Part shown: positions 1-25,372 of the stretch, one piece after another
How positions within the stretch are numbered: the first letter of the stretch is position 1
How the letters are laid out: each line of letters begins with the position of its first letter
NCBI RefSeq assembly: GCF_000332315.1
Contig: NZ_KB235936.1
Location: 48,196-112,195, forward strand
Source of the DNA: Prochlorothrix hollandica PCC 9006 = CALU 1027
GTDB taxonomy: Bacteria; Cyanobacteriota; Cyanobacteriia; Prochlorotrichales; Prochlorotrichaceae
Length of the DNA: 64,000 nt
Reading direction: 5' to 3'
Position numbers and translations under genes: made by a program
The notes under the pieces: generated by a model
What the model saw: the letters and a program-made list of their open reading frames with translations, nothing else
Database searches by the model: none
Told to the model about the DNA's origin: nothing

Positions 1-124
1 CAAACTGGAGGGTATTTTCAGCCATGGGTTGACCATCACTGTCGGGATATTCAACGGCGATCGGGGGAGCCGTGGGAGCCGTGGGAGTCGTGGGAGTCGG
101 GAGGGAGACAGTCACTGGGGTCAT
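1..124 (-). CDS. Uma2 family endonuclease-like protein, N-terminal part only (cut by window edge)
   Basis: Only the first 41 codons are inside the window; the gene runs leftwards off the edge. The visible protein starts MTPVTV, continues through a Pro/Thr/Ala-rich linker and reaches the conserved YPDSDGQPMAENTLQF stretch that opens the Uma2 (DUF820) domain in its paralogues here. The linker is the longer version (99 nt between the first ATG and the MAEN ATG), as in the copy ending at 6845. It lies 86 bp downstream of the 211-975 copy, the same spacing as in the second cluster. The family has a PD-(D/E)XK-type fold of largely unknown role; its catalytic part is not visible here. Confidence 0.8.
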   Translation of the reverse strand, partial: MTPVTVSLPTPTTPTAPTAPPIAVEYPDSDGQPMAENTLQF

Positions 125-210: not shown

Positions 211-975
211 TCATAGAACCTCTGGATCTAGACCCAATGCCCGGAGCTTGGCCGCAAGGCGATCGGCCCGTTGCTGGGCTGCTGCCGCTTGCTGGTTGGC
301 TTCCGTGGCGCGGCGATCGGCTTCCGCTGCCCGTTGGTTGGCGGCGGCTGCACGGCGATCGGCCTCCCGCACCCTTTGCTCCCGTTCCACCGTTGTTAAA
401 AAGGGCTGACCTTGGGCATTGTAAAGTTTGAGGGGTTGGCCAGCGGGATCAAAGCGAATGCCCAAACGGGGGCTAACCCAGCCCTGGAGACTGTCCAACT
501 CATCCAACACCCCATCCCGGCGTATCCAGCCCCGCCCATCATCCAGTTGGGGATCATAGGTGTAATATTCCTCCACCCCATACTGGTGATAAAACATCAG
601 TTTACGGCTCATTTCAGCGCGGGTATTGCTGGGAGACAGCACCTCAAACACCACTTGGGGGGCAATGTTCGCTTCCCGCCACTGTTGATAGGATTCCCGA
701 TCGCCCTTCGATCGGCCAAACACCACCATGGCATCGGGAGCCTTGGCAATCTCCGGGTGCCCCTCCACGGGATACCACAGCAAATCCCCCGCCACAAACA
801 CTTGGGGATCCTCCGCAAACATCACCTCTAGATTTTCCTTGAGCAGCATAATCCAGCGAAATTGGAGGGTATTGTCTGCCATGGGCTGACCGTCAGAGTC
901 GGGGTAGAGAATGGCGCTGTGGTCGGTGGCAACCGTGTCGTTGGTCGCAACCGTGGGGGGACGGGGTGGGTTCAT
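211..975 (-). CDS. Uma2 family endonuclease-like protein (subtype A)
   Basis: This 254-residue protein has an N-terminal linker, the YPDSDGQPMADNTLQF entry motif, then a DUF820/Uma2 domain with the Asp of PDAMVVFG, the Glu of VVFEVLSPSN and the following Lys of SRKLMFYHQYGVEEYY, the pattern expected for a PD-(D/E)XK-type site. The C-terminal 60 residues form an Ala/Arg/Glu-rich coiled coil (ADRRA, ANQRA, ADRRA type repeats) ending in RLAAKLRALGLDPEVL. It is closer to the gene at 6932-7660 (shared GHPEIAKAPD, STRAEMS-like and LDELDSLQ segments) than to the other copies. Uma2 proteins are abundant in cyanobacteria and their biological role is not settled; nuclease activity is inferred from fold only. 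Confidence 0.85.
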   Translation of the reverse strand: MNPPRPPTVATNDTVATDHSAILYPDSDGQPMADNTLQFRWIMLLKENLEVMFAEDPQVFVAGDLLWYPVEGHPEIAKAPDAMVVFGRSKGDRESYQQWREANIAPQVVFEVLSPSNTRAEMSRKLMFYHQYGVEEYYTYDPQLDDGRGWIRRDGVLDELDSLQGWVSPRLGIRFDPAGQPLKLYNAQGQPFLTTVEREQRVREADRRAAAANQRAAEADRRATEANQQAAAAQQRADRLAAKLRALGLDPEVL

Positions 976-4544: not shown

Positions 4545-5132
4545 TTATAGAGCGTCTGGATCTAGGCCCAATTCCCGCAGCTTGGCCGCAAGGCGATCGG
4601 CTCGTTGGCGTTCCTGTTCGGCCTGCCGCGATCGCTCCCCATAGGACACAAAGGGTTTCCCGTCGGGCCGATAGATCACCAGAGGATCCGCGCTGGGGTC
4701 AAACCGGATCCCTAAACGGGGACTGACCCAATCCTGTACCGTTTCAATCCAGTCTAGAATTCCCTCCTGGCGGATCCAGCCCTCTAGGCTATTGCTGTCG
4801 GGATCGTAGAGGTAATATTCCTCCACGCCGTACTGCTGATAGAACAGCAGCTTCCGGCTCATTTCCCCCGGTCGGTTGCCCGGGGACAGAATCTCAAAGA
4901 CGACCTGGGGCGGCAGATGGTCTTCTTGCCATTGCCGGTAGGAACCGCGATAGCCCTTGGGTCGCCCAAACACCACCAAGGCATCGGGGGCTTGGCGAAT
5001 CTTGGGGTTACCTTCCACGGGATACCACAGCAAGTCTCCCGCCACGAAGACCTGGGGATCCGCTGCAAACAGCCAATCCAGGTTTTCCTTAATCAGGGTA
5101 ATCCACTCAAACTGGAGGGTATTTTCCGCCAT
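4545..5132 (-). CDS. Uma2 family endonuclease-like protein, N-terminally shortened copy
   Basis: This 195-residue copy is almost identical over the Uma2 domain to the next two copies upstream (PD..VVFGRPKGYRGSYRQW, VVFEILSPGN, SRKLLFYQQYGVEEYY). It starts at the internal MAENTLQF methionine because the Pro/Ala linker before it is out of frame: the ancestral ATG at 5212 lies 80 nt upstream rather than 81 or 99, a net 1-bp loss. In the domain frame no ATG, GTG or TTG occurs before the stop upstream, so the conserved YPDSDGQP segment is lost. It has the shortest C-terminal coiled coil of the set (RQAEQERQRAD without extra heptads). It may still fold, as the catalytic block is whole. Confidence 0.8.
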   Translation of the reverse strand: MAENTLQFEWITLIKENLDWLFAADPQVFVAGDLLWYPVEGNPKIRQAPDALVVFGRPKGYRGSYRQWQEDHLPPQVVFEILSPGNRPGEMSRKLLFYQQYGVEEYYLYDPDSNSLEGWIRQEGILDWIETVQDWVSPRLGIRFDPSADPLVIYRPDGKPFVSYGERSRQAEQERQRADRLAAKLRELGLDPDAL

Positions 5133-5298
5133 GGGTTGACCATCACTGTCGGGATATTCAACGGCGATCGGGGGAGCCGTGGGATCGGGGGGGAGGCAGT
5201 CACTGGGGTCATGGGGTTAAGCTCTCACCAATATCAGCTATCAGCCATACGCGCAATATACTCTCCAGTCTATCGTCAGTCCCATGGTCTGGCAGACC

Positions 5299-6009
5299 TC
5301 ACAGAGCCTCTGGATCTAGACCCAGTTCCCGGAGCTTGGCCGCAAGGCGATCGGCCCGCTGGCGTTCCTGCTCAGCCCGTTGACTTTCCTGCTCAGCCCG
5401 CTGGCGTTCCTGTTCGGCCTGCCGCGATCGCTCCCCATAGGACACAAAGGGTTCCCCGTCGGGCCGATAGATCACCAGAGGATCCGCGCTGGGGTCAAAC
5501 CGGATCCCTAAACGGGGACTAACCCAATCCTGTACCGTTTCAATCCAGTCTAGAATCCCCTCCTGGCGGATCCAGCCCTCTAGTCTATTGCTGTCGGGAT
5601 CGTAGAGGTAATATTCCTCCACGCCGTACTGCTGATAGAACAGCAGCTTCCGGCTCATTTCCCCCGGTCGGTTGCCCGGGGACAGAATCTCAAAGACGAC
5701 CTGGGGCGGCAGATGGTCTTCCTGCCATTGCCTGTAGGAGCCGCGATAGCCCTTGGGTCGCCCAAATACCACCAAGGCATCGGGGGCTTGGCGAATCTTG
5801 GGGTTGCCTTCTACGGGATACCACAGCAGGTCCCCCGCCACGAAGACCTGGGGATCCGCTGCAAACAGCCAATCCAGGTTTTCCTTAATCAGGGTAATCC
5901 ACTCAAACTGGAGGGTATTTTCAGCCATGGGTTGACCATCACTGTCGGGATATTCAACGGCGATCGGGGGAGCCGGGGGAGCCGTGGGGGAGGCAGTCAC
6001 TGGGGTCAT
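5299..6009 (-). CDS. Uma2 family endonuclease-like protein (subtype B, two extra heptads)
   Basis: This 236-residue protein starts at the ATG giving MTPVTASPTAPPAPPIAVEY. The Uma2 domain spans about residues 29-190, with likely metal-site residues Asp77 (APDALVVFG), Glu107 (VVFEILSPGN) and Lys121 (SRKLLFYQQYG). The C-terminal coiled coil is built of 7-residue units (RAEQERQ, RAEQESQ) encoded by a 21-bp repeat, followed by RLAAKLRELGLDPEAL. It sits in a tandem run with 86-bp spacers. Function beyond a nuclease-like fold is unknown. Confidence 0.86.
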   Translation of the reverse strand: MTPVTASPTAPPAPPIAVEYPDSDGQPMAENTLQFEWITLIKENLDWLFAADPQVFVAGDLLWYPVEGNPKIRQAPDALVVFGRPKGYRGSYRQWQEDHLPPQVVFEILSPGNRPGEMSRKLLFYQQYGVEEYYLYDPDSNRLEGWIRQEGILDWIETVQDWVSPRLGIRFDPSADPLVIYRPDGEPFVSYGERSRQAEQERQRAEQESQRAEQERQRADRLAAKLRELGLDPEAL

Positions 6010-6095
6010 GGGGTTAAGCTCTCACCAATATCAGCTATCAGCCATACGCGCAATATACGCTCTAGTCTATCGTCAGTCCCATGGTCTGGCAGACC

Positions 6096-6845
6096 TCATA
6101 GAATCTCTGGATCTAGACCCAATTCCCGCAGCTTGGCCGCAAGGCGATCGGCCCGCTGGCGTTCCTGCTCAGCCCGTTGACTTTCCTGCTCGGCCCGTTG
6201 ACTTTCCTGTTCAGCCCGCTGGCGTTCCTGTTCGGCCTGCCGCGATCGCTCCCCATAGGACACAAAGGGTTCCCCGTCGGGCCGATAGATCACCAGAGGA
6301 TCCGCGCTGGGGTCAAATCGGATCCCTAAACGGGGGCTGACCCAATCCTGTACCGTTTCAATCCAGTCTAGAATTCCCTCCTGGCGGATCCAGCCCTCTA
6401 GTCTATTGCTGTCGGGATCGTAGAGGTAATATTCCTCCACGCCGTACTGCTGATAGAACAGCAGCTTCCGGCTCATTTCCCCCGGTCGGTTGCCCGGGGA
6501 CAGAATCTCAAAGACGACCTGGGGCGGCAGATGGTCTTCCTGCCATTGCCGGTAGGAACCGCGATAGCCCTTGGGTCGCCCAAATACCACCAAGGCATCG
6601 GGGGCTTGGCGAATCTTGGGGTTGCCTTCCACGGGATACCACAGCAAGTCTCCCGCCACGAAGACCTGGGGATCCGCTGCAAACAGCCAATCTAGATTTT
6701 CCTTAATCAGGGTAATCCACTCAAACTGGAGGGTATTTTCCGCCATGGGTTGACCATCACTGTCGGGATATTCAACGGCGATCGGGGGAGCCGTGGGAGC
6801 CGTGGGAGCCGTGGGAGTCGTGGGGGAGGCAGTCACTGGGGTCAT
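6096..6845 (-). CDS. Uma2 family endonuclease-like protein (subtype B, three extra heptads)
   Basis: This 249-residue protein is the same as the neighbouring 5299-6009 copy in the catalytic region but has a longer Thr/Ala/Pro linker and one more heptad in the C-terminal coiled coil. I start it at the ATG at 6845 (MTPVTASPTTP) by analogy with the paralogues; an upstream in-frame TTG would add only MVRANP. The gradient of heptad number across the three B copies (0, 2, 3) shows replication or recombination slippage of a 21-bp unit without loss of frame. Confidence 0.86.
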   Translation of the reverse strand: MTPVTASPTTPTAPTAPTAPPIAVEYPDSDGQPMAENTLQFEWITLIKENLDWLFAADPQVFVAGDLLWYPVEGNPKIRQAPDALVVFGRPKGYRGSYRQWQEDHLPPQVVFEILSPGNRPGEMSRKLLFYQQYGVEEYYLYDPDSNRLEGWIRQEGILDWIETVQDWVSPRLGIRFDPSADPLVIYRPDGEPFVSYGERSRQAEQERQRAEQESQRAEQESQRAEQERQRADRLAAKLRELGLDPEIL

Positions 6846-6931
6846 GGGGTTAGCCCTCACCAAATATCAGCTATCAGCCATACGTGCAATATACTCTCCA
6901 GTCTATCGTCAGTCCAAGGGTCTGGCAGACC

Positions 6932-7660
6932 TCATAGAATTTTTGGATCTAGACCCAATTCCCGCAGCTTGGCCGCAAGGCGATCGGCCCGTTGTCGTTC
7001 CTGCTCAGCCCGTTGGCGTTCCTGTTCGGCCCGTTGCCGTTCCCCTTGCCGCAGTTGCTCTCGTTCTAGGGTGCTGAGAAATGGGGTGTCATCGGCACCA
7101 TAGACCTTAAGGGGGTTCTCAGCAGGGTCAAAGCGAATGCCCAGGCGGGGACTCTGCCAATTCTGGAGGCTATCCAACTCATCCAGGATGCCATCGCGCC
7201 GGATCCAACCCCGCAGATCATTCTTCTGGGGATCATAGATATAGTATTCTTCCACGCCGTATTGGTGATAGAACAGGAGCTTGCGGCTCATTTCAGCGCG
7301 GGTATTGTTGGGGGAGAGGATTTCAAACACGACTTGGGGCGCAATGTCATCTTCTCGCCACTGTTGATAGGAACCCCGGTACCCCTTGGGGCGACCAAAC
7401 ACCACCAGAACATCAGGAGCCTTAGCGATTTCGGGATGGCCTTCCACGGGATACCACAGCAGATCCCCCGCAATAAACACCTGGGGATCTGACCCAAACT
7501 GGACTTCCAGATTTTCCTTGAAGAGAACAATCCATTGGTATTGAAGCGTATTGTCAGACATGGGCTTGCCATCGCTGTCGGGGTAAACGATCGGGGTAGG
7601 TTTCACGGGCGGGGTGATGGCTAGGGAGGGGGAAGTCGTGGGGGAAGAGGGGGGAGTCAT
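6932..7660 (-). CDS. Uma2 family endonuclease-like protein (subtype A, first gene of cluster)
   Basis: This protein of 242 residues from the ATG at 7660 (MTPPSSPTTSP) is the most upstream gene of the tandem cluster. The open frame extends to 7810, but the extra 50 residues are low complexity and paralogues begin with MTP. The domain has the PDVLVVFGRPKG Asp, the VVFEILSPNN Glu and the SRKLLFYHQYG Lys. The C-terminus has a coiled coil with RAEQERQ heptads. It groups with the 211-975 gene by shared GHPEIAKAPD, NTRAEMS and RRDGILDELDSLQ segments, so the two A genes each head a cluster of B genes. Confidence 0.84.
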   Translation of the reverse strand: MTPPSSPTTSPSLAITPPVKPTPIVYPDSDGKPMSDNTLQYQWIVLFKENLEVQFGSDPQVFIAGDLLWYPVEGHPEIAKAPDVLVVFGRPKGYRGSYQQWREDDIAPQVVFEILSPNNTRAEMSRKLLFYHQYGVEEYYIYDPQKNDLRGWIRRDGILDELDSLQNWQSPRLGIRFDPAENPLKVYGADDTPFLSTLEREQLRQGERQRAEQERQRAEQERQRADRLAAKLRELGLDPKIL

Positions 7661-16238: not shown

Positions 16239-16405
16239 GTCTGGTCTCCTGCGATTGCTATGGCTGAAACGATGGCCAAAAAAACGGTCAAAAAAACGGT
16301 CAATAACACCCCCTAGCGATGGGGGGAACCCAGAAATTCTATCACGATGTCCCAATCCTCTCCCCCTAGGCAAGCTGTCCCAGCCGCCAGCCGTTGGCAC
16401 GACTC

Positions 16406-16597
16406 CAAATCTTAGCCACCCAAATCTTAGCCACCCAAATCTTAGCCACCCAAATCTTAGCCACTCAAATCTTAGCCACCCAAATCTTAGCCACCCAAAT
16501 CTTAGCCACTCAAATCTTAGCCACCCAAATCTTAGCCACCCAAATCTTAGCCACTCAAATCTTAGCCACCCAAATCTTAGTCACCATCTTAGCCACC
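16406..16597. repeat. 15-bp minisatellite, 12 full units, with 45-bp higher-order period
   Basis: The unit CAAATCTTAGCCACC repeats twelve times, plus a shortened last unit. Units 4, 7 and 10 end in CCACT instead of CCACC, so most of the array is built of 45-bp trimers. Since 15 is a multiple of three, long frames stay open across it (QILAT or NLSHP pentapeptides), but none has gene-like flanks. It lies upstream of leuD and downstream of the 16869-17663 methyltransferase. There is no spacer diversity, so it is not CRISPR. Confidence 0.93.
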
Positions 16598-16724
16598 CAA
16601 TGATGGAGAACCAAAACTGCTGTAGTTACCCTGTTCAGTCCATGGAGCAAGACCACCAGAAGGGCACTACTTCGGGGGGGCAGGATCGGATTGAAATCGG
16701 GGGAGGTCAATGCCCCCATTTTGG

Positions 16725-24977: not shown

Positions 24978-25260
24978 GCTCTATGGTTGGTTCTTAAACT
25001 CCAGTGAGTGCAACCTTTTCGCTCGATCTGGGCTAGCGGACTTGTAGTCGGCTTCGGGTCGAGGGCAACTCGACAATCCCAGGCGATGGATGGTTGGGAG
25101 GTGTGGCATTGCCAGATCTGAACAACGATCGCCATGGGCTAGCCATGGACTTGCTCCATCAGTACGTGAGCGGGGTGGGGCATCACGACTTCGGCCAACA
25201 GATGATAGCGATCGCCATCTCCCAACAGCATTATTTGAGTGAAACTCTCCCTTGTGCCCC

Positions 25261-25372
25261 GCTGACCTTGTGTCCTGCTGACCTTGTGCCTTGCTGACCT
25301 TGCGCTTTGCTGACCTTGCGCCTTGCTGACCTTGCGCCCCGCTGACCTTGCGCCTTGCTGACCTTGCGCCCC
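25261..25372. repeat. 16-bp minisatellite upstream of nadB
   Basis: Seven units of GCTGACCTTGCGCCTT-type sequence begin at 25261, 25277, 25293, 25309, 25325, 25341 and 25357. Variants alternate CTT, CCC and TCC at the unit end. The period is not a multiple of three, consistent with non-coding DNA. The array ends 48 bp before the nadB start and so lies in the likely promoter region. Confidence 0.9.

Follow-up and report, generated by a model that had tools for sequence, protein, structure and literature searches.

The window analysed here is a stretch of 64,000 nucleotides from Prochlorothrix hollandica PCC 9006 = CALU 1027 in which neighbouring genes of Uma2, a family of predicted nucleases, are nearly identical over most of their length but carry C-terminal tails that differ by whole heptads. 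The locus raises the question of whether these steps reflect only the period of the DNA repeat that encodes them, or whether the register of the encoded tail is itself under selection and, if so, what kind of structure the tail would form.

A tandem array of Uma2 genes with stepwise heptad numbers

Four Uma2 (PF05685) genes, c1 to c4, lie on the minus strand between positions 4545 and 7660 of the window, and glycosyltransferase-like genes stand between c1 and a fifth gene of the array, A. All five score 54–63 bits against the Pfam Uma2 model (cut-off 27). Tail lengths throughout are residue counts between two landmarks, the F at the end of the nuclease domain and the L of the C-terminal cap LRxLG (LRxLGxDP). 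The genes, their repeats and the spacers between them are:

1..124, minus strand: N-terminal end of a further array copy, truncated by the window edge, with its body across a 100-N assembly gap
211..975, minus strand: A, fifth Uma2 gene of the array, tail 52, diverged heptads
4545..5212, minus strand: c1, Uma2 gene, 0 extra heptads; ATG at 5212 out of frame, open from ATG 5132 (195 aa)
4605..4625, minus strand: c1 repeat unit, 1 x 21 bp (QAEQERQ)
5213..5298, minus strand: c2–c1 spacer, 86 bp; palindrome GGTCTGCCAGACC at 5286–5298
5299..6009, minus strand: c2, Uma2 gene, 236 aa, 2 extra heptads, tail of 38 residues between the landmarks
5359..5421, minus strand: c2 repeat, 3 x 21 bp (QAEQERQ, RAEQESQ, RAEQERQ)
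6010..6095, minus strand: c3–c2 spacer, 86 bp; palindrome GGTCTGCCAGACC at 6083–6095
6096..6845, minus strand: c3, Uma2 gene, 249 aa, 3 extra heptads, tail 45
6156..6239, minus strand: c3 repeat, 4 x 21 bp (QAEQERQ, RAEQESQ, RAEQESQ, RAEQERQ)
6786..6824, minus strand: c3 N-terminal 9-bp repeat (Thr-Ala-Pro)
6846..6931, minus strand: c4–c3 spacer, 86 bp; palindrome GGTCTGCCAGACC at 6919–6931
6932..7660, minus strand: c4, diverged Uma2 neighbour, 68% identity to c2, tail 38 as in c2
6987..7043, minus strand: c4 21-bp repeat

A first-pass annotation had described three near-identical Uma2 genes here with 0, 2 or 3 extra 21-bp heptads, and this series was recovered exactly, c1, c2 and c3 containing 1, 3 and 4 heptad units and hence 0, 2 and 3 additional RAEQE[R/S]Q repeats of 21 bp or seven residues each (Tandem Repeats Finder scores of 97 and 104). 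The count of three genes, accurate for the near-identical members, left out c4 and the rest of a longer array and took no account of the out-of-frame N-terminus of c1. Likewise, heptad number does vary at the C-terminus, where the copies were said mainly to differ, but a second variable element, the N-terminal 9-bp repeat, had been overlooked; its copy number differs among the array genes, so that their N-terminal linkers step by three residues and not by seven.

Nucleotide alignment over 162 core codons revealed 12 synonymous and no replacement changes between c2 and c3, and two amino-acid changes in c1. The c2/c3 core is thus constrained, and the scattered synonymous differences among c1, c2 and c3 mark them as diverged copies rather than assembly duplicates, a possibility that the annotation had itself raised. 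The ATG at 5212 in c1 is out of frame with the c1 coding frame at a C7 run preceding the YPxxDG motif, the N-terminal segment measuring 65 nt as against 66 or 84 nt in its sisters in the window. The first in-frame start, at 5132, would drop YPxxDG, which is invariant in 74 relatives. Given this frame problem and the loss of the motif, c1 may be a broken gene (pseudogene) or may contain a homopolymer sequencing error.

The conservation of spacer length noted earlier holds for the entire array, since the distance from stop codon to next ATG is 86 bp in every spacer, including those of copies outside the window. Directly after the stop codon of the upstream array gene lies the perfect palindrome GGTCTGCCAGACC, with a further copy in the window at 198–210. 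It was considered as a dispersed genomic repeat and discarded as such, as the genome has five exact copies, all within this array. Promoter and terminator scans gave no excess over shuffled sequence. Uma2 has been treated as a solo toxin of the type II toxin-antitoxin kind (PMC2701414), and the 86-bp spacers leave no room for an antitoxin gene between array members. The PADLOC model PDC-S03, a defence candidate from a family without function, was matched over part of its length only (E = 2e-8 and 5e-10). Elsewhere in the window there are two other tandem repeats: a 15-bp unit, CCAAATCTTAGCCAC, in 13 copies at 16405–16600, apparently intergenic, and a 16-bp unit, CCTTGCGCCCTGCTGA, in 7.6 copies at 25250–25371, whose period does not keep the reading frame.

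Upstream of the window, at C4:45131-48300, the array continues with three copies of the same type, whose extra heptads number 4, 6 and 7; the series over the whole array is therefore 0, 2, 3, 4, 6 and 7 (tails of 24, 38, 45, 52, 66 and 73). The assembly of this adjoining segment has three gaps of exactly 100 N each inside array genes, whereas the window contains no N. In one gene there (locus L032, C4:44000-48300), a gap separates a head and a tail of different subtypes, which may be a mis-join. In the whole genome, assembled in 13 contigs, we counted about 108 Uma2 loci.

Tail lengths of B-type Uma2 proteins fall almost entirely in one heptad class

Relatives were gathered from named species genomes and by whole-genome searches, with sister species drawn from other genera, and yielded B-type tails from cyanobacteria, planctomycetes, Bacteroidota and others (n = 179). 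Tail length was 3 mod 7 in 79/82 tails of the first set and, with the rules unchanged, in all 31 scorable tails of a held-out set fetched later. When the data were pooled with wider patterns, lengths ranged from 17 to 108 and obeyed 17+7n in 178/179 tails after correction (165/179 raw), the landmarks of eight loci (L102, L178, L238, L240, L274, L279, L200 and L136) having been reset by eye. Before correction, 53 of the 59 clusters that the pooled tails form at 70% core identity fall in a single mod-7 class. Moreover, on a tree of 173 cores from which the tail was excluded, at least 100 length changes are set against a single change of length mod 7. The suggestion of the first-pass annotation that the repeat period preserves both reading frame and heptad register is thereby borne out far beyond this locus.

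Array genes fetched later have tails of up to 143 residues. Known exceptions to 17+7n are L135, with 53 residues, and one array gene in genome G269, with 95, owing to one extra Lys at a Lys run. A second Uma2 subfamily also occupies 7n classes, with 10/16 tails in one and three in another. At three loci in two genomes (L202, L203 and L187; G012 and G032), a longer C-terminal segment (ALSLVLRLL...LLDF) replaces the cap after the heptads and is possibly an alternative tail end of B-type Uma2.

The rule does not depend on a visible repeat. Tails without a detectable 21-bp repeat, defined as having no window at 70% identity or more at lags of 21 or 42 bp, conform to 17+7n in 45/45 cases with lengths of 17 to 45, so the mutational period of the repeat is by itself an insufficient explanation. 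Nor do these genes generally vary by sevens, since their N-terminal linkers change in three-residue steps. Taken together, the repeat-less tails and the different step of this other repeat favour selection on register. Part of the constancy of length class may nonetheless be mutational, since many tails are recent heptad repeats.

Stepwise arrays with other heptad sequences

Similar stepwise arrays, built from other heptad sequences, were found in genomes G015, G021, G326, G343, G142 and G269. Tails measure 24, 31 and 45 in G021; 24, 31, 38, 45 and 52 in the five genes of G015; 24, 31, 38, 45, 52 and 59 in the six of G326; and 24, 31, 52, 59, 66, 73, 80 and 87 in the eight intact B-type genes of G343. 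Sister species differ in their lengths, with 17, 31 and 45 in G142, 17, 31 and 52 in G331, and 17, 38, 52 and 66 in G327, so that heptad number, for which the first-pass annotation had proposed a comparison among close strains, indeed varies among relatives, here in other genera. G269 has a 14-gene array with tails of 59 to 143; the near-identical Uma2 copies of this genome, about 36 in all, are spread over several arrays (L337, L338, L339 and L342) and have mosaic heptads of up to 143 residues.

Equal lengths are scarce in some of these arrays. Three of 80 pairs in small arrays were equal in length, compared with 9.7 expected from random draws (P = 0.008), and among the intact genes of new arrays there were none, compared with 3.65 expected (P = 0.007, or 0.03 when a broken gene is counted). 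In the G269 arrays, the largest set and one with many ties, there was no deficit of equal lengths against a stricter array-length null (P = 0.46). A rule that no two neighbours share a length was discarded, ties occurring in G269, L128, G148 and G326.

Predicted structure of core and tail

An AlphaFold2 single-chain model of c3, built with 74 sequences, has a mean pLDDT of 93 and predicts an unbroken helix over residues 197–241, with a pLDDT of about 97–98 per block and 92 at the very end. Foldseek matched the solved DUF820 structures 9y1l, 3ot2, 6okh, 1wdj and 3ijm (E = 3e-8 to 8e-4), but these matches span the nuclease core only, the tail being absent from every solved Uma2/DUF820 structure matched. 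D83 and E113 are invariant, and K127 is conserved in at least 90%, among the 74 sequences. These are the acidic and Lys positions expected of a PD-(D/E)XK site, and the three are putative catalytic residues.

The first-pass annotation had called the tail a coiled coil. The continuous predicted helix and the lengths in steps of seven agree with this, whereas the hydrophobic a and d positions that a canonical coiled coil would have throughout are missing from the repeats. Arg, Glu and Gln abound in the heptads, where the small residue is mostly Ala: position a is Ala in 64% and a large hydrophobic residue in 17%, position d is Glu in 60% and Ala in 28%, Arg is found at g, and Leu at a and d is limited to the last heptad and the cap. 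Such residues at a and d give no clear sign of a classical coiled coil, and the repeat sequence would suit a lone, solvent-exposed helix as well. A COILS-type score, although high, was excluded from the evidence because scores of this kind cannot tell charged single helices from coiled coils. It is the 7n rule that best indicates the need for a continuous helix face.

A probable register-locked stalk and its alternatives

We consider it likely that the tail is a register-locked helical stalk, probably oligomeric, which gains and loses whole heptads by recombination and in which register is selected and length largely free. In this view, a B-type Uma2 protein has a PD-(D/E)XK nuclease-fold domain from which a single uninterrupted C-terminal helix leads to the conserved cap (L..LR.LG.DP), and selection would hold the helix in phase from the end of the nuclease to the cap while leaving stalk length nearly free. 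Whole heptads could be gained or lost by slippage or unequal recombination between the 21-bp repeats, either inside single genes or from one tandem paralogue to another, the cores of these paralogues remaining nearly identical. Phase would matter if the helix packs along a fixed face on a partner helix, most simply in a homo- or hetero-oligomer of Uma2.

Were 21-bp slippage the whole cause, register would be unselected and length variation would be neutral minisatellite noise. Recent tails are indeed near-perfect 21-bp repeats whose copy number varies between near-identical genes and between sister species, and such a repeat alters length by 21 bp with or without selection. Yet mutation alone would let other in-frame indels build up over such divergence, whereas residue class was kept in 99 of at least 100 length changes, repeat-less tails of several lengths still follow the rule (45/45), and the other in-frame repeat of the same genes moves in three-residue steps; we therefore regard this explanation as unlikely. 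The composition of the heptads, rich in Arg, Glu and Gln with Ala, and the confident prediction of a continuous helix would also fit a monomeric charged helix that serves as a ruler and packs on no partner. A free helix, however, has no need of heptad register, and the strict 7n rule together with the Leu a/d positions of the cap suggests that the face must be continuous, which makes a lone spacer helix improbable. An error of assembly, in both repeat number and copy number, might be suspected from the three 100-N gaps in the adjoining part of the array and from the possible homopolymer frame error in c1, but the window is free of N, scattered synonymous changes separate c1, c2 and c3, and arrays of the same kind occur in the single-contig genomes G326, G343 and G269, so that such an origin is highly improbable.

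The first-pass annotation had proposed that the repeat could tune oligomer or partner choice. Such a role for length itself would amount to a code, in which tail length sets either which Uma2 proteins co-assemble or the distance between nuclease and partner, and neighbours are selected to differ. All lengths differ in many arrays with near-identical cores (this one and those of G326, G015 and the eight intact genes of G343), and equal pairs are fewer than random draws would give in both the small and the new arrays, which offers a lead towards a code. Against this, the idea was formed after part of the same data had been seen, the arrays of sister species are not independent of each other, ties are many, with no deficit in G269, and distinct lengths are expected from high turnover alone. 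A code of this kind is thus doubtful, and quite unlikely is its specific form, in which near-identical paralogues of one array would be kept at different whole-heptad lengths to let each assemble with itself or a partner of its own, as a length-encoded orthogonal set. The almost free variation of length (17 to 143) between near-identical neighbours and sister species fits a stalk of unconstrained length at least as well as a code.

For the register-locked stalk, the strict length rule marks the C-terminal helix as a working part whose phase matters and points to tail-mediated assembly. Uma2 is among the most amplified cyanobacterial families and we found no reported function for it; near-identical genes that differ only in helix length provide natural ladders for tests of the tail.

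Comparison with known systems

Cyanobacterial paralogue cassettes of Uma2 (DUF820, COG4636) are known (PMC2701414), and these cassettes together with the nuclease prediction have already been published (PMC2701414, PMC1913061). The genes described here resemble that family in their Pfam match, their fold match (3ot2, 1wdj, 6okh, 9y1l) and their arrangement in paralogue cassettes, and differ from its solved relatives, which consist of the nuclease core only, in bearing a heptad-quantised tail. In the literature searched, which covered few subscription papers, we found no description of a heptad-quantised or coiled-coil Uma2 tail. Uma2 cassettes, 21-nt heptad variation and 7n linkers are each known separately, and their combination in Uma2 is apparently new within that literature.

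The closest parallel at the DNA level is DUF16/RepMP1 of Mycoplasma pneumoniae, in which 21-nt tandem repeats in a coiled-coil region produce whole-heptad differences in copy number (PMC3472980). Both systems have 21-nt repeats, whole-heptad differences and several paralogues, but DUF16/RepMP1 is an unrelated family without a nuclease domain, and its variation is among strains of one species rather than a rule that holds across phyla. Linkers of Rec-GGDEF diguanylate cyclases likewise have discrete lengths in steps of seven (PMC8041772). There the helix is a signal-transmitting connection between two domains, whereas in Uma2 it forms a C-terminal tail that bears only a short cap, has weak core residues and comes in more length classes. 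In GCN4, by the account in PMC5344682, insertions of seven residues are tolerated and those of 2, 4 or 6 are not, heptad register being needed for function. The GCN4 spacing data and the SMC arms treated in the same source are experimental and concern other proteins, and what they share with the Uma2 tail is the principle of heptad register.
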